Shown: positions 9,005 to 63,616 of the stretch, in pieces
Position numbering within the stretch: the first letter of the stretch is position 1
How the letters are laid out: each line of letters opens with the position of its first letter
DNA from: Clostridiales bacterium
GTDB taxonomy: Bacteria > Bacillota > Clostridia > Lachnospirales > Lachnospiraceae
Length of the DNA stretch: 64,000 nt
Assembly (NCBI GenBank): GCA_020859985.1
Contig: JAJBVD010000034.1
Location: 186,001 to 250,000 of the forward strand
Direction of reading: 5' to 3'
Notes under the pieces: model-generated
Told to the model about the DNA's origin: nothing
Database searches by the model: none
The model's input: the letters and a program-made list of their open reading frames with translations, nothing else
Made by a program: the position numbers and the translations under genes

Positions 9005-9023
9005 CATTTTACAAGAACCCCTT

Positions 9024-9136
9024 ATTATTACATGCAGATTATTTTATAATCCTCTCATTATCACACGCGGATTATTTTATAATCCTCTCATTATCACATG
9101 CAGATTATTTTACAATCCCCTCATTAATACCCGCAG
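9024..9136. repeat. 33-bp tandem repeats in the 3' untranslated region of the surface protein
   Basis: Three full 33-bp copies (9024-9056, 9057-9089, 9090-9122) and a partial fourth follow the surface-protein stop. Each begins ATTATYACAYGC and holds a small palindrome GATTAT-TTT-ATAATC, so the RNA would carry a row of identical weak hairpins. There are no unique spacers, so this is not a CRISPR array. Confidence 0.9.
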
Positions 9137-9138
9137 TT

Positions 9139-12100
9139 TTAGTTCTCCTCATCTCTCCTTCTTCTGCGGATGAATACCACCAGCAGAACAATGAAGATCA
9201 GGCAGGCAACTACTGCTACTGCTACAACCTGCATGATCGGTGTGTCATCACCAGTCTGAACAGCGTCCAGAGATTCCACAATGTTGAATGTCACCGACGT
9301 CGTGGTCGTCGTGCCGTCAGCCACCCAAGAGCTGCCGTCATATACCTGTCGCTCAAATGTCACCGTCAACGTGTACTCGCCAGTCTTCTTGATGGACATG
9401 GACGTCTCATACGGAGCGGAACTCCAGGTGTTTGAAACATTTCCAATCGTGTAGCCGGTCGGTACATATCGGACATCGCCCGGATTCGGATCCGTGATAT
9501 CCATACCGGCGCCAACCGGTGTAAAGGTCAGCTTCTCATTTGCCACGTAGGAGCCGCCCTCCTCGATTCCGCTGATATAGTTGCTTGCCCCGGTCGGTGC
9601 GTCCTCATAGGTCGCGGAGATCGTCACATTGCTTGCCGGCATCGTAAAGGTCGTAGACGCTTTCGATGCATCTGTAAATGTCACATTGCCGCTCGTCGCC
9701 GTCCAGGCCGAGAACACTTTGCCGCTCGCCGGATAGTTGGAGGAGATCGTCACCGTATCGCCATAGTAGAAATACGTCGCATTCGCGTTGCCGTTCTCCA
9801 CGGTCACACTATACTGCACTTTCTTGTAGTTCGCTGTCACCGACACATCTGCCGACGGCATCGTGAACGTAGTCGTCGCTTTCGAAGCATTGGCCAGTGT
9901 CACATTCTGCGTACCTACCGTCCAGGAATCAAACTCATACCCCGTCGCAGGTGTATCAGCCGTAATCGTCACGGTCGTGCCTGCCGTAGTCTGTGTATAA
10001 TCTGCAGAGCCATTCGTCACCGTCACATTGTACTTCACGCCGGTATAATTCGCTACAAAGGTCAGATCCTGCGTCACTGTCACGGTAACAGTAGAGGAGG
10101 ATGCGCTGTCGCCCAGATCATAAGCGCCGTCATTGACCGTCCAACCGGAGAACTCTTCTCCGCTCGCGCTCGCATTTGCCGTCACCGTGATCTGCGTGCC
10201 TTCCTCATAGGTATTTTCCGTATAGGTCCCGTCAATCAGACCGTTGGACACCTTCACTGTATAGGTAGCCGCCTCGGCCACATATACCGCCGTCACTTCC
10301 ACATCCCCGGCCGGCATCGTAAAGGTCGTCGTCGCGGAAGAGCTATTCGTAAATGTCACCTCGGTTGAACCGGTGCTGGTCCAATGGTCAAACACATACC
10401 CGGACTCCGCCGTCGCCGCGGCAATGCTCACGGAATTACCATAGTAATACGTAGCTGATGTCGCTCCCGAAGTACCGGTCGTTCCGTTTACCACAGTTAC
10501 TGTATAAGGTGTCTGTACGTAATTCGTAGTCACCGTAACAGCTCCTTCCGGCATGGTAAAACTGTATGTGCCGTTTCCATTATCCGAATAACTCACCGTA
10601 CTGCCGTTGCTGTCTACAATCGTCAGTCTGTCATAGCTATAGCCCGTAGCCGCAGTCGTCGGCGTAACGGTGACAGTATCGCCTGCCGCAAAAGTGGAAT
10701 CCAAGGCGATTCCGTCCATCGTGACTGTATAAAGCTTCACATAATTCGCCTGAACAGTCACCGCCGTATCTGTCATGGACGTATCTGCCTGTGTAACCAC
10801 AACTGTAGCTGTCTGAGCAGCCGACTCTGAAGCACCGTCGACTGTCGCGGTTACTGTGCTGCTGTCCGGCGTGACTACGGACCAGGAGCTGAACCTGTAC
10901 GTTACATCAGAAACCGTAATCGTTTCCTGCGCAGTAACTGTATAGGTCGCTGTACCGGTAGGCACATCGATTCCGGACACAGTCTCTGTCTGCACCTCTG
11001 TCTCTGATGAAGCAATCTCCGTGTCGCCGCAAACTGATTTCTTCGTCAGTGTATACGTATATGTCGTCGTAGTAGGATTAGTCTCAGCAACCGCAGCTGT
11101 ACCGCCGTCATCCGTAACAATCATGATGCCGCTGTCTACTGGTTCTGTAGCAGTCGTCTCCGTCTCGGTCTCTGCTGCAGTCTCTGTCTGCACCTCCGTC
11201 GCGGCTTCAGTCTCTGATGCGGTATAAGTCGCCAGAATCACAACATCTGTCTCCGGCATGGTGAACGAAATCGTCTGTGCGGTCAGATCATTCAGAGTCA
11301 CATTCAGAGAAGATACGTACCATGCGCTGAACGTATAGCCTTCCAGTTCTTCCGCGGTGATCGTCACCGTATCTCCGGCTGCGTAAGTCTCGGTATTCGT
11401 CTTTGCATAAGACTCTGCGCCTGTATCATAGTTGACTGTCAGAGTCGCGTATACAAGTTCGGCCGTCATGGCAATGCCTGCGTCCGTATCAGCTGTCGTC
11501 TCTGCTGTCGTCTCTTCGGTAACGTCCACTACAACTACATTATTCGAAGCGGTCGCTTCGGTAGATTCTGTAGCCTCCGTTGCTTCCGTCACTGCAGCTT
11601 CCGTCGCCTCGGTAGCCTGAACAGCTTCCGTCACTGCCTCAGTCACCGCCTCGGTCTCCTGCGTATAGGTCGCGGTAACTGCCACTTTGCCCTTCGGCAT
11701 CACAAACGTCGTCTCTGCGCTGGACGCATCTGCCAGTGTGACTGTCACATCCTCATCCGTCTCCACAGTCCAGCCTGCAAATACATATCCCTCTTCCGGG
11801 GCGGCCGCTGTGATCTTTACCGACTCGCCTTCCGGATAGTATGCGAGGTCTTTGCTGATATTCTCCGCCTCCAGGGCAGCCTTTTCTTCATCTGTAAATT
11901 CATAATGGTTATCCGTTGTGCCGCTGTCGTCCGTCATTGCGGTCACGGATGTGCCATCCACTACCGTCAGCACATATCCTGCCAGGGTCAGCTGGACAGA
12001 TGCCGGTGTTGCTTCTGCTTCCACTACTTCCGTGCCATCCCCAGCTACAGATATCACTGCGTCGGTCCCGGCTGTATAGGATGCCGTAAAAGCTTTTCCC

Positions 12101-12518: not shown

Positions 12519-12988
12519 CAAGCGGGACGATAAGCCGGGTTCTGTCGTGAGTGGTCATCTATCCAGGCCTGCCGTCGCCGGCAGGCTCAAGCGACCTACC
12601 TGAGGCTGACGGGCCGTCTGATGTTGCTCTTTTCGCCTCTTCGCGGTCTTGCTTCGGATGGGGTTTACATATGCCGCCTCTGTTGCCAGATCTTTTAAGC
12701 CATGCCATCGCGCTATGCGCGATGGCATGGCCTGCGTCATCACTCTGCGAGTAATGACATGTGGCGCGGTAGTCTCTTACACTGCCCTTCCACCCTTACC
12801 GCCCAGTATCCGCACTCCGAAAGAGTGATGACCTTAGGCGGCGGTTCATTTCTGTTGCACTGTCCCTGGAGTCGCCTCCGCCGGACGTTATCCGGCATCC
12901 CTGCCCTGTGAAGCCCGGACTTTCCTCGTCTATTGTACGGCATCGTTTTCTGATGCCGGACAGTAGACGCGACCACTTATCCCACTTG
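12519..12988 (-). ncRNA. rnpB: RNase P RNA, bacterial class A
   Basis: This is the catalytic RNA that matures tRNA 5' ends. The minus strand contains the universal blocks GAGGAAAGTCCGGGC near the 5' end, ACAGAAATGAACCGCCG, AAACCCCATCCGAAGCAAGA and the 3' block ACAGAACCCGGCTTATCG. The ends pair as P1 (CAAGTGGGA with TCCCGCTTG, then ATAAG/CTTAT). The region corresponding to P12, between ACCGCGCC and CTGGCAACAG, is enlarged by two extra perfect hairpins (12699-12731 and 12736-12758). Exact ends are approximate; identity is certain. Confidence 0.95.
12699..12758. mobile_element. palindromic module inserted in the P12 region of rnpB
   Basis: Two consecutive hairpins, GCCATGCCATCGCGC-TAT- and its complement (15-bp perfect arms), then GCCTGCGTC leading into GTCATCACT-CTGCG-AGTAATGAC. 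The junction GGCCTRCGTC followed by a hairpin closing on GAC is shared with 62561-62596 and, on the minus strand, with 8697-8729. Confidence 0.55.
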
Positions 12989-34127: not shown

Positions 34128-34973
34128 ATGCTCATATCGGGATTGCAAAAACTGACCTTACTGGATTACCCCGGCAGGGTCGCCTGCACTGTATTTTTAG
34201 GCGGCTGTGATTTTCGCTGCCCATTTTGTCATAACAGTGAACTGATCGGTAGCACGCCTGCGGCATTCCCTCCCGCAGCCCGGCGAGAGAATACTTTTTC
34301 TGCCCAAAAAAGAGAGGCTGCTGCTCCCGGCACGGAGACGATCTCCGAGGAGGAATTTTTTGCATTTCTTGAAAAGCGCCGCGGTCTGCTGGACGGCGTG
34401 GCGGTGACAGGTGGAGAACCCACGCTCTACCGTGACCTGCCGGAATTTCTTGCACGAATTCATGATATGGGATTTGCCGTCAAGCTGGATACCAACGGCA
34501 ACCATCCGCAGATGCTGAAGCAGCTTCTGGATGCCGGACTTGTCGATTATGTGGCAATGGATATTAAAAATTCTCCGCAACGCTATGGCAAGACGATTGG
34601 AATCCCGGGATTTGATCTTTCCAATATCAGCGCCAGCATTTCTCTCCTGATGAACGGAGCGAAGCGCCCGCGAAACGCGCAGCGTTTTCTGCATCGCAGG
34701 CGCGACCTGCCGCCGCAGCGCAGCGAGAGGGCATTTCCACCGGACTATGAATTCCGCACCACGGTCGTGAAGGAATTTCATGACGACAATGTCTTCCCGG
34801 AGATCGGGCAGTGGATTCAGGGCGCGAAGCGCTATTACCTGCAATGCTTTGTCGACCGCGATACCGTGCTGCAGGAAGGACTGCATGCGCCCTCCGGAAA
34901 GGATCTGCAGCGATATGTAGAGCTTGTCCGGCCTTATGTAGATAAAGTAGAGATTCGCGGAGTTTCCTTATAA
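34128..34973 (+). CDS. nrdG: anaerobic ribonucleotide reductase activating protein, with in-frame palindromic insert
   Basis: The radical SAM iron-sulfur enzyme (281 residues) generates the glycyl radical in NrdD. It has LTLLDYPGRVACTVFL, the cluster motif CDFRCPFC (27-34) and VTGGEPTL. Two segments exceed the family pattern: about residues 45-72 (PAARRENTFSAQKREAAAPG) and residues 179-205, encoded by the 75-bp palindromic element at 34664-34738 and inserted just before DYEFRTTVVKEFH. The frame is kept in both. nrdD follows, but a terminator and a new promoter lie between. Confidence 0.93.
   Translation: MLISGLQKLTLLDYPGRVACTVFLGGCDFRCPFCHNSELIGSTPAAFPPAARRENTFSAQKREAAAPGTETISEEEFFAFLEKRRGLLDGVAVTGGEPTLYRDLPEFLARIHDMGFAVKLDTNGNHPQMLKQLLDAGLVDYVAMDIKNSPQRYGKTIGIPGFDLSNISASISLLMNGAKRPRNAQRFLHRRRDLPPQRSERAFPPDYEFRTTVVKEFHDDNVFPEIGQWIQGAKRYYLQCFVDRDTVLQEGLHAPSGKDLQRYVELVRPYVDKVEIRGVSL
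34664..34738 (+). mobile_element. 75-bp palindromic element inside nrdG
   Basis: 71 of 75 positions match 38448-38522 inside rimO. Internal structure: the hairpin AAACGC-GCA-GCGTTT; an enclosing stem (GCGCCTGC/GCAGGCGC in the rimO copy, one mismatch here); then GCAGG/CCTGC and a GC-rich end. Length is 25 codons with no stop in the frame used. Translated here as RNAQRFLHRRRDLPPQRSE. Confidence 0.85.
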
Positions 34974-37761: not shown

Positions 37762-38298
37762 TCACATCTGCCCGTCCATGACGCTCCAGTTCTTTTTCAG
37801 ATAATCCACGAGCGAGATCACCGTCAGAATCACCGCAATCCAGGTCACGACCTGCGCGATCAGGTTCCACACACTGCCAAAATCGAAGATCAGCATGATC
37901 ACCATGATCATCTGGGAAACCGTTTTAAACTTGCCCCAATAGCTGGCCGCGATCACAGTGCCTTTTTCAACAGCCACAAGCCGGAAACCGCCGATCGCCA
38001 GCTCCCGCCCAATAATGATGATCACCATCCAGGCCGCAAGCTTGTCCTGTTCGACCAGACAGATCATCGCCGAGCAGACAAGCAGCTTGTCCGCGATCGG
38101 ATCCATAAACTTTCCGAAATCCGTGATCAGATTGTCCCTTCGGGCAATGTACCCGTCCAGCGTGTCGGTCAGGCTCGCCAGAATAAAAATGATTCCCGCC
38201 AGAATGTTCCCATAAGGAATCCCATCGACCAGCATCAGCACCACAAACACGGGTACCATGCATACGCGCAGCATTGTCAGCTTATTCGGTAAATTCAT
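37762..38298 (-). CDS. pgsA: CDP-diacylglycerol--glycerol-3-phosphate 3-phosphatidyltransferase
   Basis: The 178-residue membrane enzyme makes phosphatidylglycerol phosphate. It has the CDP-alcohol phosphotransferase motif D-G-x2-A-R-x8-G-x3-D-x3-D seen as DTLDGYIARRDNLITDFGKFMDPIADK, and four to five membrane helices. ATG at 38298 follows AGGAGTG; a TTG two codons earlier is less likely. It overlaps the rimO 3' end by 17 nt, so the pair is translationally coupled; rimO-pgsA is a common Gram-positive order. Confidence 0.95.
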   Translation of the reverse strand: MNLPNKLTMLRVCMVPVFVVLMLVDGIPYGNILAGIIFILASLTDTLDGYIARRDNLITDFGKFMDPIADKLLVCSAMICLVEQDKLAAWMVIIIIGRELAIGGFRLVAVEKGTVIAASYWGKFKTVSQMIMVIMLIFDFGSVWNLIAQVVTWIAVILTVISLVDYLKKNWSVMDGQM

Positions 38299-39829
38299 CT
38301 GCAATCACTCCTATCAGATCATATTCCTTCGCGCCGGTTATCTTCACCTGTGCGAAATCACCGGACATCAACGTCTCATCGGTATTGATAAACAGCAGAC
38401 CGTCCACATTCGGCGCATCGCCGTATGTACGCGCCACATAAGTGTGAGCGCCTGCGAAACGCGCAGCGTTTTCTACATCGCAGGCGCGACCTGCCGCCGC
38501 AGCGCAGCGAGGGGGCGTTTCCTCTTCGCCTGCGAAACGCGCAGCGTTTCCCTCGTCCTCTGACCATTCATTGCCTTCTTCACTGGCAAAGCTGTCGGGA
38601 AACGCATCCTCTTCCATCAACTCGCCCTCCACCATTGCAGTCACGGTACGTCCAACCATCTGCTCCGCATGCTCAAAGGCGATCTCCTGCTGCAGCGCCA
38701 TCAGTTCATCCCTCCAGCGCTGTTTTGTCTTCTCCTCAATCTGATCCGGCATGACTGCCGCCGGCGTATCTTCTTCCTGCGAATAAGTAAAAACACCCAG
38801 CCGGTCAAACTCCATCTCATCGATGAAATCCATCACTTCCTCATGCTGTTCCGGTGTCTCACCCGGAAATCCCGCAATCAGCGTCGTGCGAAGTACAATG
38901 TCCGGTATCCGCTCCCTCAGTGTCCTGATCATCGCGGTCAGATCCGCGCGAGTCGTCCTGCGCCCCATCCGTCTCAGGATCGCGTCAGAAGCATGCTGAA
39001 TCGGCAGATCCAGATAATGGCAGAGCTTCGGCTCACGGGCCATCACGTCAATCAGCTCGTCGTAAATTTCCTCCGGATAACAGTACAAAATACGGATCCA
39101 CCGCAGGCCCTCTATCCGGCAAAGCGCCTCCAGCAAAAGATGCAGGCTTTTACGGCCGTAAAGATCCACGCCGTAAACCGTCGTCTCCTGCGCGACCAGA
39201 ATCAGCTCTTTCACTCCCTGCGCCGCCAGACTCTCCGCCTGCGCGATCAGATCCTCCATAGGCACACTGCGGTACGGTCCGCGCAGCTTCGGGATAATGC
39301 AGTAGGTACAGTGCTTATCGCAGCCCTCCGCGATTTTCAGGTAGGCATAATAGCCGCCTGTCGTCAACACACGCTTTGCCGCTTCACCACACTCTTTTAC
39401 AACCGGCGCCTCATCGGCATGCTTCGCTGCCGGTTCACGCACCGTATCAAAAGAACATACCTCCACACTCCGCTCTCCATGCAGCGCTTTTTCCAACACA
39501 GGAACAATATCTCCCCACGCAGTCGTGCCGAGCACCGCATCCACTTCCGGCAGCTCGTCGAGAATCTCCTGCCGGTAACGCTGCGCCATACACCCCGTCA
39601 CCAGAAGCACCTTGCAGCTTCCTGCATTCTTATATTCCGCCATCTCCAGAATGGTCTGCACGCTCTCATCCTTTGCGTCGTTGATAAAACAGCAGGTGTT
39701 GATAATAATCACATCGGCCTCAGTCTCATCGTCCGTAAAGGAATACCCTTCCGCAGCCAGCAGGCCCAGCATTTCCTCCGAATCGACCAGATTCTTGTCG
39801 CAGCCGAGAGAAACAAAAAATATTTTCAT
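38282..39829 (-). CDS. rimO: ribosomal protein S12 methylthiotransferase, with in-frame palindromic insert
   Basis: The enzyme adds a methylthio group to an Asp of ribosomal protein S12. It has the N-terminal cluster cysteines (C10, C46, C80), the radical SAM motif CDKHCTYC (170-177) and a C-terminal TRAM domain (YVARTYGDAPNVDG onward). At 515 residues it is about 70 longer than usual. The excess lies between VEGELMEEDA and the TRAM part; residues about 428-461 are encoded by the palindromic element at 38448-38549, read on the strand opposite to the nrdG copy (CAAAAGRACDVENAARFAG). The gene start overlaps the DUF308 stop by 4 nt. Confidence 0.94.
   Translation of the reverse strand: MKIFFVSLGCDKNLVDSEEMLGLLAAEGYSFTDDETEADVIIINTCCFINDAKDESVQTILEMAEYKNAGSCKVLLVTGCMAQRYRQEILDELPEVDAVLGTTAWGDIVPVLEKALHGERSVEVCSFDTVREPAAKHADEAPVVKECGEAAKRVLTTGGYYAYLKIAEGCDKHCTYCIIPKLRGPYRSVPMEDLIAQAESLAAQGVKELILVAQETTVYGVDLYGRKSLHLLLEALCRIEGLRWIRILYCYPEEIYDELIDVMAREPKLCHYLDLPIQHASDAILRRMGRRTTRADLTAMIRTLRERIPDIVLRTTLIAGFPGETPEQHEEVMDFIDEMEFDRLGVFTYSQEEDTPAAVMPDQIEEKTKQRWRDELMALQQEIAFEHAEQMVGRTVTAMVEGELMEEDAFPDSFASEEGNEWSEDEGNAARFAGEEETPPRCAAAAGRACDVENAARFAGAHTYVARTYGDAPNVDGLLFINTDETLMSGDFAQVKITGAKEYDLIGVIADEFTE
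38448..38549. mobile_element. palindromic element inside rimO, one full and one partial copy
   Basis: 38448-38522 is 71/75 identical to the nrdG copy; 38527-38549 repeats its first 23 bp (CGCCTGCGAAACGCGCAGCG...). The full copy has a complete outer stem GCGCCTGC/GCAGGCGC around the AAACGC/GCGTTT hairpin. It is read in rimO from the minus strand without stops. Confidence 0.85.
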
Positions 39830-40734
39830 GACAAAGTGTCTTCCTTTTCTGGCATATCCAACTGAACTCCCTGTTCATCCACTGAATTGCTATTCGATCC
39901 GCAATCCGGTCTGTCCGGCACAAAAATCGCATCCTTCACACTGCTGTCCGCCTCTGAATCCGGTTCACAACCGTCAGACTCCCCGGCTGCTTCTGAGTCC
40001 GATTCATATCCGTCAGACTCCCCGGCTGCCTGCTCTTCTGCGTCCACCACAATCTCCTGTTCCTGACGCTTCTGCTCCTTCTTCCTGCGCTTTTGCTCTT
40101 TCTTCTCCGCTTTGGCGGCGTCTGATTTCGCCCACTCATCCTCGATCAGCGCTTTAACATCCACGCCGGGATACTTTTTCTGTATCTTTTCCAGCTTTCT
40201 GGTGCGCAGCCGGATGGCCAGAAGGCCAATCAGGTTTGTCAGACCATCAGCGATCAGGCAAACGCCGATATAGATCAGCATCTGATCGTCTTTCTCGAAA
40301 GGATATACCAGAAGGAAAATGCCAAGTGCAATGATAATCAGCGCCAGAATCAGCGCCAGATACCAGCGTCGAATCATAAGACGCTTCATGCTGACCGCAC
40401 TCTGAATCTTAACGATTGCACCGACCAGAAGCACCGTCGCCATCGCAAATGGTAATACCATACGCATAAAATCCGGCGTCAGTAAAACAAAAACACCAAA
40501 TGCAGCGCAGACGATCGCGATCACAAGCTCCAGCTGCAGGTAGCCCTCCTGTCTCTTATCGCTCGTAAAATAGATCACGCCGTATGTGGCTCCCACCACA
40601 AGCATGATCACTCCCACGCCTTTCCCAATCATCTGTATGGAAAGAGTCGGCCAGACCAACAGCACGATCCCAACCGCCACATAGAGGAAAGAAAGGAAAA
40701 TATAGCTTCTGCTGAATTCCCTGATTTTTTTCAA
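39826..40734 (-). CDS. DUF308 (HdeD-like) membrane protein with charged tail
   Basis: The 302-residue protein has six membrane segments in its first 190 residues arranged as in DUF308/HdeD proteins, then a Lys/Glu-rich stretch (AEKKEQKRRKKEQKRQEQE) and an acidic tail with a 13-residue tandem repeat (AAGESDGYESDSE, AAGESDGCEPDSE) encoded by two 39-nt repeats (39950-40027). The start is a TTG at 40734 with a strong AGGAGGGG upstream. Function unknown; it is translationally coupled to rimO. Confidence 0.8.
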   Translation of the reverse strand: MKKIREFSRSYIFLSFLYVAVGIVLLVWPTLSIQMIGKGVGVIMLVVGATYGVIYFTSDKRQEGYLQLELVIAIVCAAFGVFVLLTPDFMRMVLPFAMATVLLVGAIVKIQSAVSMKRLMIRRWYLALILALIIIALGIFLLVYPFEKDDQMLIYIGVCLIADGLTNLIGLLAIRLRTRKLEKIQKKYPGVDVKALIEDEWAKSDAAKAEKKEQKRRKKEQKRQEQEIVVDAEEQAAGESDGYESDSEAAGESDGCEPDSEADSSVKDAIFVPDRPDCGSNSNSVDEQGVQLDMPEKEDTLS

Positions 40735-52587: not shown

Positions 52588-52638
52588 ATGGTGTATTCTC
52601 CTTATTCCGTCAGTGCCTTTCAAATGCTGTTTTCCTGT

Positions 52639-58382: not shown

Positions 58383-58661
58383 TCACAATCCGGCAAAGAA
58401 CAATTCGTAAAAATCATCCTCCGCTTCCAACATAGGTGAGTTCTCTCCGCCGCCGTTCGTGCTGCGCTTCATCTCTGCATAGGATTCTTCTCCAGCAGCG
58501 ATGACATCCATCTCATATACGGGATACCCCAGTTTCCGGCATTTTACGCAAAAAGCTGAAAGAGGATTTTTCTGTTCTCTTGTCTGAAGGAATTCTTCCC
58601 GAAGCCTTGCATCCTTTTGCGCTATTTTTTTGATCTCATCCAACATTTCAGCAATTTCCAT
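58383..58661 (-). CDS. Nif11-like small protein with conserved acidic/aromatic tail
   Basis: 92 residues. The first 60 (MEIAEMLDEIKKIAQKDARL onward, through FCVKCRKLGYPVYEMDV) resemble the Nif11/NHLP leader pattern of a helical region, Asp-rich start and LGY segment; the rest (STNGGGENSPMLEAEDDFYELFFAGL, written here in two parts: STNGGGENSP and MLEAEDDFYELFFAGL) is a conserved tail after a Gly-Gly-Gly. A Gly-Gly followed by a distinct tail recalls precursor peptides, but no modification enzyme or peptidase lies nearby, so this is only a resemblance. A disrupted copy lies at 62381-62747. Confidence 0.6.
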   Translation of the reverse strand: MEIAEMLDEIKKIAQKDARLREEFLQTREQKNPLSAFCVKCRKLGYPVYEMDVIAAGEESYAEMKRSTNGGGENSPMLEAEDDFYELFFAGL

Positions 58662-58667
58662 GGCGTG

Positions 58668-58868
58668 TCATCTGTCCTCTCTGTTTGTGCTTGGGGCGTC
58701 CGTTTTCATCTGTCTCTCAATCCAGGCCATTAAAACGTCAACTACATATTTCTGCTGCTCGTCCGTCAGTTCTGTTCCTTTTGGTATCCTGTGCCATTTT
58801 TCCAGACAGCCTCTGCAGCAACACCCGGTTGCGTGCTGCGCGATAAAAGTTTGCTTTGAGCCATCCAT
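58668..58868 (-). pseudogene. truncated DUF4186 protein
   Basis: The 66 codons give the C-terminal half of DUF4186 (FIAQHATGCCCRGCLEKWHR onward) and match the complete copy at 63191-63616 almost residue for residue, but the N-terminal half is missing. The frame runs on upstream without homology (VYAVERLSKRM). It directly precedes the Nif11-like gene with a 6-nt gap. Confidence 0.65.
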
Positions 58869-62380: not shown

Positions 62381-62747
62381 CTATAATCCGGCAAAGAATA
62401 ACTCGTAAAAGTCATCCTCCGCTTCCAGCATAGGCGAATTTTCGCCACCGCCATTCGTGCTGCGTTTCATCGCCGCATAGGATTCTTCTCCAGCAGCGAT
62501 GACATCCATCTCGAACCAAGGTGAGCCTCGCCATGCAGAATTCGCCTATCGGCGATGGCTCGGCCTACGTCCATGATTTGCTTCGCAAATCACGGACAAT
62601 TCACACGGGATAACCAAGTTCCCGGCATTTTGCGCAGAAAGCCGAGAGAGGATTTTTTTGCTCTCTTGTCTGAAGGAATTCTTCACGAAGCCTTGCATCC
62701 TTTTGCGCGATTTTTTTGATCTCATCCAACATTTCAGCGATTTCCAT
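62381..62747 (-). pseudogene. Nif11-like gene disrupted by a palindromic module
   Basis: The start (MEIAEMLDEIKKIAQKDARL) and end (tail DDFYELFFAGL) match the intact protein at 58383-58661 nearly exactly. After ELGYPV the frame hits a TGA inside about 90 bp of extra sequence (62512-62602); after the extra DNA the homology resumes with EMDVIAAGEESY. The intact paralogue shows the junction directly, so this is an insertion, not simple divergence. Confidence 0.8.
62512..62602. mobile_element. palindromic module interrupting the Nif11-like gene
   Basis: About 90 bp absent from the paralogue. It holds GAGCC...GGCTC with the inner TTCGCC-TATC-GGCGA, then GGCCTACGTCC leading into the hairpin TCCATGATTTGC-TTC-GCAAATCACGGA (62569-62595). 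The second half matches the minus strand of 8697-8729 (GCCTGCGTCCAT...TTGCTTTGCAA...ACGGACA). Confidence 0.7.
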
Positions 62748-62783
62748 GCCCTACCTTCTTCCTTCCACTGTCAGTTTTTCACG

Positions 62784-63194
62784 TCAAATAATGATTCCAT
62801 GCAGATGATCTACCTCGTGCTGAATAATCTGCGCTGTCCATCCACTGAACTTCTGGCGCTGCTCCTTAAAGTTGACATCCTGATATCTGACCTCAATCTC
62901 CTTATAACGGACACATTTCCTGACACCAACAAGGGACAGACAGCCTTCTTCTGTCTGAAACGGCTTTACTTTCTTCGTTATTTCAGGATTGTACATCAAA
63001 AGATTCATGAAGCCTATATTCACAACAATAATCGCTTTGTTCACACCAATCATATTAGCAGCCATTCCAACGCAGCCGTTCTCATGTGCCTTTAGCGTGT
63101 CAAGTAAATCCATCGCTGTCTGACTGTCCTCCGGCGTGGCCGGTTCTGCTTTTTGTGAAAGGAAAAGCACATCCTTCATTATCGGCTTAATCAT
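62784..63194 (-). CDS. def: peptide deformylase, divergent type
   Basis: The 136-residue metallo-enzyme removes the formyl group from new proteins. Motif 2 EEGCLSL and motif 3 IIQHEVDHLHG (HEXXH-type metal site) are intact. Motif 1 reads GCVGMAANMIG: the usual catalytic Gln of GxGxAAxQ is Met here, as in a divergent clostridial branch, so activity or specificity may differ. ATG at 63194 overlaps the DUF4186 stop by 4 nt. Confidence 0.85.
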   Translation of the reverse strand: MIKPIMKDVLFLSQKAEPATPEDSQTAMDLLDTLKAHENGCVGMAANMIGVNKAIIVVNIGFMNLLMYNPEITKKVKPFQTEEGCLSLVGVRKCVRYKEIEVRYQDVNFKEQRQKFSGWTAQIIQHEVDHLHGIII

Positions 63195-63616
63195 ATCTGG
63201 TCTTCGCTCCTTATATCTGTGTCGGGTGTGTCTGTTTTCATCTGTTTCTCGATCCAGGCCATCAAAACATCGACTACATATTCCTGCTGCTCGTCCGTCA
63301 GTTCTGTTCCTTTTGGAATCCGATGCCATTTTTCCAGACAACCTCTGCAGCAGCACCCTGTTGCGTGCTGTGCGATAAAGACCGGATGGCCTCTCATTGG
63401 TGTCTGTTTCCCATCGTTAAGCGGCTCTGCAGGAGCCAGCCTCTTGCTGATAAAATCACAGGCATGGGAACGGATTTTGTCCATGCCCTTGTCCCGGACA
63501 TACGTTTTGTCTGCCGTTTTTAAAGAAAAGCTGCTGCGGAATTTCGATTGGGCAAGACGAGCAAAGAGATTCTCAAAAGGATCATCATCGTTTCTCTGCC
63601 TGTTCCCATAAATCAT
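63191..63616 (-). CDS. DUF4186 protein, complete
   Basis: The 141-residue protein has FENLFARLAQSKFRSSF at the start, CDFISKRLAP, and the cysteine/tryptophan-rich C-terminus (FIAQHATGCCCRGCLEKWHR, TDEQQEYVVDVLMAWI). The four or more cysteines suggest metal or iron-sulfur binding; function unknown. I chose ATG 63616 (after AAAGGTGG) over the GTG at 63649. Confidence 0.8.
   Translation of the reverse strand: MIYGNRQRNDDDPFENLFARLAQSKFRSSFSLKTADKTYVRDKGMDKIRSHACDFISKRLAPAEPLNDGKQTPMRGHPVFIAQHATGCCCRGCLEKWHRIPKGTELTDEQQEYVVDVLMAWIEKQMKTDTPDTDIRSEDQI

Follow-up and report, generated by a model that had tools for sequence, protein, structure and literature searches.

How does one short piece of DNA come to lie within two protein-coding genes, read from one strand in the first and from the other strand in the second? 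The question is raised by a 64,000-nt stretch of a Clostridiales bacterium genome of the Lachnospiraceae (the window; contig JAJBVD010000034.1), in which rimO and a second radical SAM gene each contain a copy of an element of about 76 nt that runs from AGC to TTCC and comprises two separate hairpins. The features concerned, in window coordinates, are as follows.

34128..34973, + strand: radical SAM ORF of 281 aa (Radical_SAM, Fer4_12), from the ORF list and Pfam
34663..34738, + strand: second element copy, in sense orientation in the radical SAM ORF
38282..39829, - strand: rimO (UPF0004, Radical SAM, TRAM_2), named by its domain set and resemblance
38447..38522, + strand: GA-cis-type element, rimO copy (hairpin 1 and hairpin 2), antisense to rimO
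38448..38456, + strand: outer 5' arm of hairpin 1, GCGCCTGCG, 9 nt, with 9/9 Watson-Crick pairs (row L019)
38458..38470, + strand: inner hairpin of hairpin 1, AACGC-GCA-GCGTT, from sequence, fold and loop counts
38479..38487, + strand: outer 3' arm of hairpin 1, CGCAGGCGC, from arm pairing
38492..38517, + strand: hairpin 2, conserved TGCCGCC...GGGGGCG, from comparison of copies
38527..38549, + strand: partial second copy, a 23-nt restart of hairpin 1, 78 nt downstream
38550..38584, + strand: further linker of about 35 nt, missing from the empty rimO site of locus L089; the linker varies between relatives

The window copies share 95% identity across 76 nt, and the peptides encoded by them, AKRPRNAQRFLHRRRDLPPQRSERAFPP and EEETPPRCAAAAGRACDVENAARFAGAH, are mutually unrelated. 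A sequence-only reading of the window had proposed that one DNA unit here gives unrelated peptides in two radical SAM genes through opposite orientations, and this holds. In rimO the element sits between the radical SAM and TRAM matches; the other gene presumably belongs to the anaerobic ribonucleotide reductase activase type, judged by resemblance. The folding energies of the window copies are not clearly distinct from those of shuffled sequences (z of -2.25, -1.11, 0.20 and -0.50). The direct repeat in rimO is exactly 23 nt long (38449-38471 and 38527-38549) at a spacing of exactly 78 nt, which equals the period of tandem arrays in G011 and G018 (in G007 the period is about 80 nt), and these arrays bear out the earlier suggestion that the element grows by duplication.

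The element is already registered under an RNA name. With the Rfam covariance model RF02987 (GA-cis; Rfam type 'Gene; sRNA'), the rimO copy scores 43.8 bits (38444-38526) against a cut-off of 34.7, and the second copy scores 31.8 bits, just under it. Weinberg et al. 2017 are reportedly the source of GA-cis as a cis-regulatory motif upstream of genes. Both this registration and the placement of the element upstream of Shine-Dalgarno sites in other genera, described below, had been missed by the sequence-only reading. In our literature search, the family was not described as mobile in anything found, and 'GA-cis' appeared as a whole word only in a table row of one paper.

The element occupies about forty places in the genome of this gut bacterium, mostly in open frames of genes. 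A blastn search of that genome returned 27 matches, the query itself included, and the covariance model 51 matches at E<=10, 36 of them above the RF02987 cut-off, so that a dispersed multi-copy family, as opposed to a single conversion event, is confirmed. Matches at E<=0.001 were obtained in 24 of the 47 genomes of the genus (own included), with a maximum of 62 in one genome; at E<=1e-5, 21 of the 299 genomes sampled from the family had matches (own included), and copy numbers in that survey are lower bounds because few candidates were scored per genome. Fourteen control genomes gave no match at E<=0.001; at E<=10, weak matches appeared in 11 of them, none above the cut-off. For a phage route, viral contigs gave no match to the exact conserved-half pattern, a weak result since the pattern is strict.

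Occupied and empty sites show what an insertion adds. When the flanks of each copy were joined and used as a query, a spanning match was found for 41 of 130 copies; 32 of these were compared (identity at least 79%), and nine within the array of one contig were left out, giving 23 comparisons between loci at 20 sites, three of which were encountered twice. The net lengths were 78 nt (13 comparisons), 75 (4), 72 (1), 81 (1), 90 (1), 76 (2) and 74 (1), and were thus divisible by three in 20 of the 23. Together with the open frames of 40 of the 43 own copies, this supports the earlier claim that insertions leave frames open. The rimO site is empty in L089 and carries a tandem array at the same position in L091, the site of the radical SAM gene is empty in L090 (net +78 nt), and window position 52604 is itself the empty site corresponding to a copy in the relative G009. 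By eye, the comparisons showed no target duplication of more than 2 bp and no fixed insertion word that was consistent across sites, and no terminal inverted repeats were seen at the element ends.

Copies that lie close together tend to be alike. Among 41 copies of the own genome, 14 pairs within 15 kb have a mean identity of 0.773, compared with 0.645 overall (0 of 10,000 permutations). With pairs closer than 300 nt excluded, neighbours are again more alike in G014 (8 pairs, 0 of 5000) and in G010 (10 pairs, 139 of 5000), and weakly so in G009 (7 pairs, 845 of 5000). Some alike neighbours lie on opposite strands (contig C31 of G009; L086), and alike copies also occur on different contigs (identity 0.91). 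We conclude that the element is probably a non-autonomous mobile DNA repeat of two hairpins that disperses locally and in frame.

The anatomy of the hairpins bears on how such a repeat might be copied. Hairpin 1 combines an outer stem of 9 bp with an asymmetric internal loop and an inner hairpin whose loop has three bases; hairpin 2 is conserved among copies (TGCCGCCGA...GAGGGGGCG). A loop and arm finder accepted 162 of 164 copies, in which the hairpin 1 loops, closed by three Watson-Crick pairs, are GAA (91), GCA (27), AAA (11) and GGA (8); because the finder requires a GC[GA]NAGC-like loop with at most two changes, these counts lean toward the motif. C-GNA-G loops are unusually stable in DNA. 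In 117 distinct arm pairs of the outer stem, 983 of 1053 positions are Watson-Crick pairs, 19 are of GT type, 11 of AC type and 40 of other types, and 68 of the stems are perfect, whereas re-dealing the 3' arms (200 rounds) gave on average 485 Watson-Crick pairs (highest 521), 97 GT and 94 AC. As a control on the finder, which could be rechecked for 100 of the 117 arm pairs, 100 chimeras yielded 609/900 Watson-Crick pairs versus 837/900 in the real copies. Between similar copies, the arm changes comprised 30 paired ones of transition type, 29 paired ones of transversion type and 24 with an unpaired side, counts that are not independent. Ten insertion sites are shared (of 14 pairs listed, four were one place fetched twice): three show paired arm changes, three one-sided or unpaired differences and four no difference. 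A first arm table had kept 73 rows and dropped four armless ones, at least one kept row being false (L061+618, score 3.0); loose regular-expression collections (93 of 160 kept; 614 rows) consisted largely of false matches, and the analysis does not use them. In both L050 and L052, an additional hairpin of one shared kind (CTCGCCGGGTGGCATCC...) interrupts the hairpin 2 region, forming an insert inside the element.

A stem selected as RNA is expected to contain many G-U pairs. We read the rarity of G-T pairs as pointing to pairing at the DNA rather than the RNA level, with the caveat that GT-type mispairs are not below AC-type ones (19 versus 11); moreover, the finder selects whichever arms pair best and ranks GT higher than AC, and pairing in RNA may therefore contribute to some degree. 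The copying intermediate would then be a DNA hairpin recognized by its shape, that is, by the internal loop and the small loop, and not by its arm sequence. Either one arm might be recopied from the other, or mobility could be limited to well-paired hairpins. A factor of the host, or one acting in trans, would move the element, mainly across short distances.

In REP/BIME with RAYT and at the ends of IS200/IS605, hairpins are recognized by a single-stranded logic and no target duplication is made. The element could be an end-derived relic of IS200/IS605 or REP/RAYT, moved by a Y1 HUH transposase on single-stranded hairpins, which we consider unlikely. Two hairpins on the same strand, the lack of a long target duplication and local moves fit Y1 biology, the own genome contains two Y1 matches, and the + strand of the element lies on the C-rich strand in 34 of 42 own copies, in 19 of 25 copies of G009 and, among own copies in lagging-strand genes, in 5 of 6. 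However, Y1_Tnp is missing from the copy-rich, near-complete genomes G007, G008, G009 (100% complete), G014, G016 and G020 and, outside the genus, from 11 of the 20 positive genomes, and REP are extragenic by name whereas the present element is mostly intragenic. The polarity set by replication is also inconsistent: the C-rich strand carries the + strand in 20 of 31 copies of G010 and 15 of 31 of G014, and in the lagging-strand genes of three relatives 9 of 12 copies are antisense to the gene, in the opposite direction.

Replication-strand polarity was therefore dropped as inconsistent, pooled copies in lagging-strand genes being split 8 versus 10. A Y1 transposase or a reverse transcriptase as required partner was likewise dropped, being missing from some copy-rich genomes, although a past or distant mover is possible; reverse transcriptase is present in 34 of 47 genus genomes (own included), and G009, with 29 copies, has no RVT_1 match. 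No transposase or other mover was found, and no move was observed.

Alternatively, copying might need no dedicated enzyme: displaced nascent DNA would fold and be pasted nearby by template switching, with arrays arising by slippage. Local dispersal, arrays of exact units, partial second copies and variable yet well-paired stems are all consistent with this scheme, as are the lack of Y1 and, in G009, of reverse transcriptase. Alike copies on separate contigs, a replication-strand bias that differs between genomes and the restriction of the family to some genera, which the scheme leaves unexplained, speak against it, and we give it as small a chance as the Y1 relic.

Somewhat less probable still is a true cis-regulatory RNA that controls the gene in which or before which it sits. 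Besides an Rfam match above threshold, it has support in other genera, where an ORF of 80 codons or more, preceded by a Shine-Dalgarno sequence, starts downstream in 10 of 12 loci (in nine within 30 nt of the element), and where a Shine-Dalgarno-like GGAGG falls within the first 16 nt of 10 of the 12 elements. In some of these loci, the downstream frame is open back through the element. The present element belongs to the same sequence and structure family as RF02987, but in contrast to a cis placement the own copies are nearly all intragenic, mostly antisense and in unrelated genes; few G-T pairs occur in the variable stem; and occupied and empty sites, together with the arrays, show that copies are gained and lost. 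The family thus occupies two niches, upstream of genes in those genera and within genes here. At L265-L276, the copies open with an AGGAGG-like word; in several, this word is found again between the element and the start codon, as if the insertion duplicated the ribosome-binding site.

Where the own copies sit was examined through their reading frames. Forty of the 43 own copies (42 full ones and one hairpin-1 fragment, L053) are traversed by a stop-free frame of 80 codons or more, the exceptions being L022, L033 and L050; because frames were measured from stop to stop, copies near an N-terminus may precede the true start codon. Thirty-five of the 40 element-bearing ORFs match a Pfam family at E<=1e-5 (L027 under Pfam's own cut-off), and L028, L029, L030, L045 and L046 do not. 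The families include MutL, MutS, PriA domains, RimO, the second radical SAM, a MurD-like ligase, polyprenyl synthase, thymidine kinase, RelA/SpoT, DnaB_2, GalT and ketopantoate reductase, among others. The insert often lies between domain matches or close to the N-terminus; by our reading of the matches, a domain is interrupted in roughly two in five of the 35, and in six (L017, L026, L034, L038, L041 and L047) a single domain match spans the insert. When ORFs are taken to begin at a start codon, 36 of the 42 copies fall in genes, about as predicted from the 85% of the sampled DNA covered by such ORFs (560,500 of 657,451 bases), so genes are not visibly avoided. Relative to the host gene, 26 own copies are antisense and 10 sense, or 27 and 9 after correction of L026, which had been given a wrong short ORF in place of a 475-codon antisense ORF (L021, with no region, was left out). 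In three relatives, 50 are antisense and 18 sense (68 genic copies among 87 with clear skew, out of 88).

These frames also bear on whether the encoded peptide is selected as a short mobile linker. One antisense frame, of the type ETPPR(S/C)ASAA.RA.D.ENASRFAGA, is used in 22 of the 40 ORF copies, but the remaining 18 are read in different frames and in either orientation, any given one of the six frames is open in 70-86% of copies, and the bias toward one frame agrees with tolerance no less than with function; we therefore regard a peptide linker as very improbable. The earlier view that selection acts on structure or mobility and not on the peptide keeps its first half, since strand pairing is common to all copies, and is weakened in its second by this recurrent frame. 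Open frames number 4.58 of 6 per copy compared with 4.17 in dinucleotide shuffles (sd 0.08; 50 shuffles, 125 copies), so the proposed excess of stop-free frames is real. It is confined to genic copies, however (4.72, n=104, versus 3.86 in intergenic ones, n=21), and selection after insertion can account for it without openness being a selected property of the element. Counting against the mobile-repeat reading, model lengths deviate from 3n+5 in 30 of 105 genic copies, although their ends are imprecise.

The window pair is the second most alike in the genome (identity 0.94), which might suggest that rimO and the radical SAM gene exchanged the sequence once by gene conversion and that no mobile family exists, but dozens more own copies, matches in 23 of 46 other genus genomes and empty sites for both genes in relatives leave this reading practically no room.

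The hairpin-1 module seems to be common to several repeat families. A related repeat of the same hairpin-1 design, with arms AAAAAGTCC/GGACTTTTT, the loop catcgcgcagcgattttaaat or one near it and a different tail (CCCGTAACTGTGAAGG or CCCTCGCCGGG), was seen at L181 19157, L200 12343, L203 17329, L249 11652, L251 13951 and L255 16258, and GAAAAGCCC forms of it at L204 and L214. At L069-L081 (G038 and G042), near-identical GA-cis copies lie inside a larger repeat of about 250 nt that ends near GGGCGTCCGGGT; several of these are at contig ends, and Rfam names the GA-cis part alone in L069 and L077. The window itself holds a lone hairpin-1-like palindrome at 12697 on the - strand (GGCCATGCC-atcgcgcatagcgcgat-GGCATGGCT, 8/9 pairs, without hairpin 2). 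Other repeats in the window are an AT-rich 33-nt tandem unit of about four copies (9018-9149), a 39-nt tandem pair at 39950-40027 that forms an acidic repeat in the C-terminal part of the ORF at 39826-40734 on the - strand, and three stretches of 128-162 nt, 88-90% identical and about 4 kb apart, at 58387-58847 and 62385-63379, which are perhaps paralogous genes.

Taken further than our preferred reading of a non-autonomous mobile repeat, GA-cis might be not an RNA at all but a DNA hairpin replicon, a conjecture that we hold only tentatively and think more likely wrong than right. Single-stranded hairpin DNA would be pasted nearby during replication without a dedicated transposase, and each copying would rewrite one arm from the other, so that arms drift yet are born perfectly paired; in one genus, the element would have left Shine-Dalgarno sites for coding sequence by adopting a length of 26 codons.

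We know of no mover for the Rickettsia palindromic elements (RPE), the closest counterpart of the present element, and double-hairpin elements of mitochondria are likewise dispersed hairpin repeats. RPE are short palindromic repeats of Rickettsia, about 105-150 bp long with terminal inverted repeats, that lie in frame in many unrelated conserved genes and are tolerated by the protein (PMC2229807, PMC10969869). Likened by description, the present element resembles RPE and their Wolbachia counterpart in being inserted in frame in many unrelated conserved genes, and it differs in being a double hairpin of 75-78 nt in Lachnospiraceae, without a long stem-loop with terminal inverted repeats, and in its freely varying paired arms, 26-codon arrays and local spread. 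By this analogy, the element would work like RPE; what is new is the host, the size, the behaviour of the arms and the local spread. Mitochondrial repetitive hairpin elements, some of them within genes (PMC2800124), are organellar, unlike this bacterial element, and are likened to it by description as well. MITEs with ORFs (ERIC, Correia and Yersinia repeats) are also small and non-autonomous, with some in-frame gene fusions, whereas the present element is, by eye, without inverted repeats at its ends and with a duplication of at most about 2 bp.

In-frame mobile palindromes are best known in Rickettsia, with some ERIC, Correia and Yersinia cases (PMC2229807, PMC10969869). The present family in the Lachnospiraceae is rich in copies and offers occupied next to empty sites, so that the origin of such palindromes can be tested; it is also an example of how insertions in mutS, mutL, priA and rimO can be accepted by a genome. 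Our results further suggest that a family listed in Rfam is a mobile DNA repeat and that DNA hairpins among presumed RNAs could be recognized by stems that covary without forming G-U pairs.
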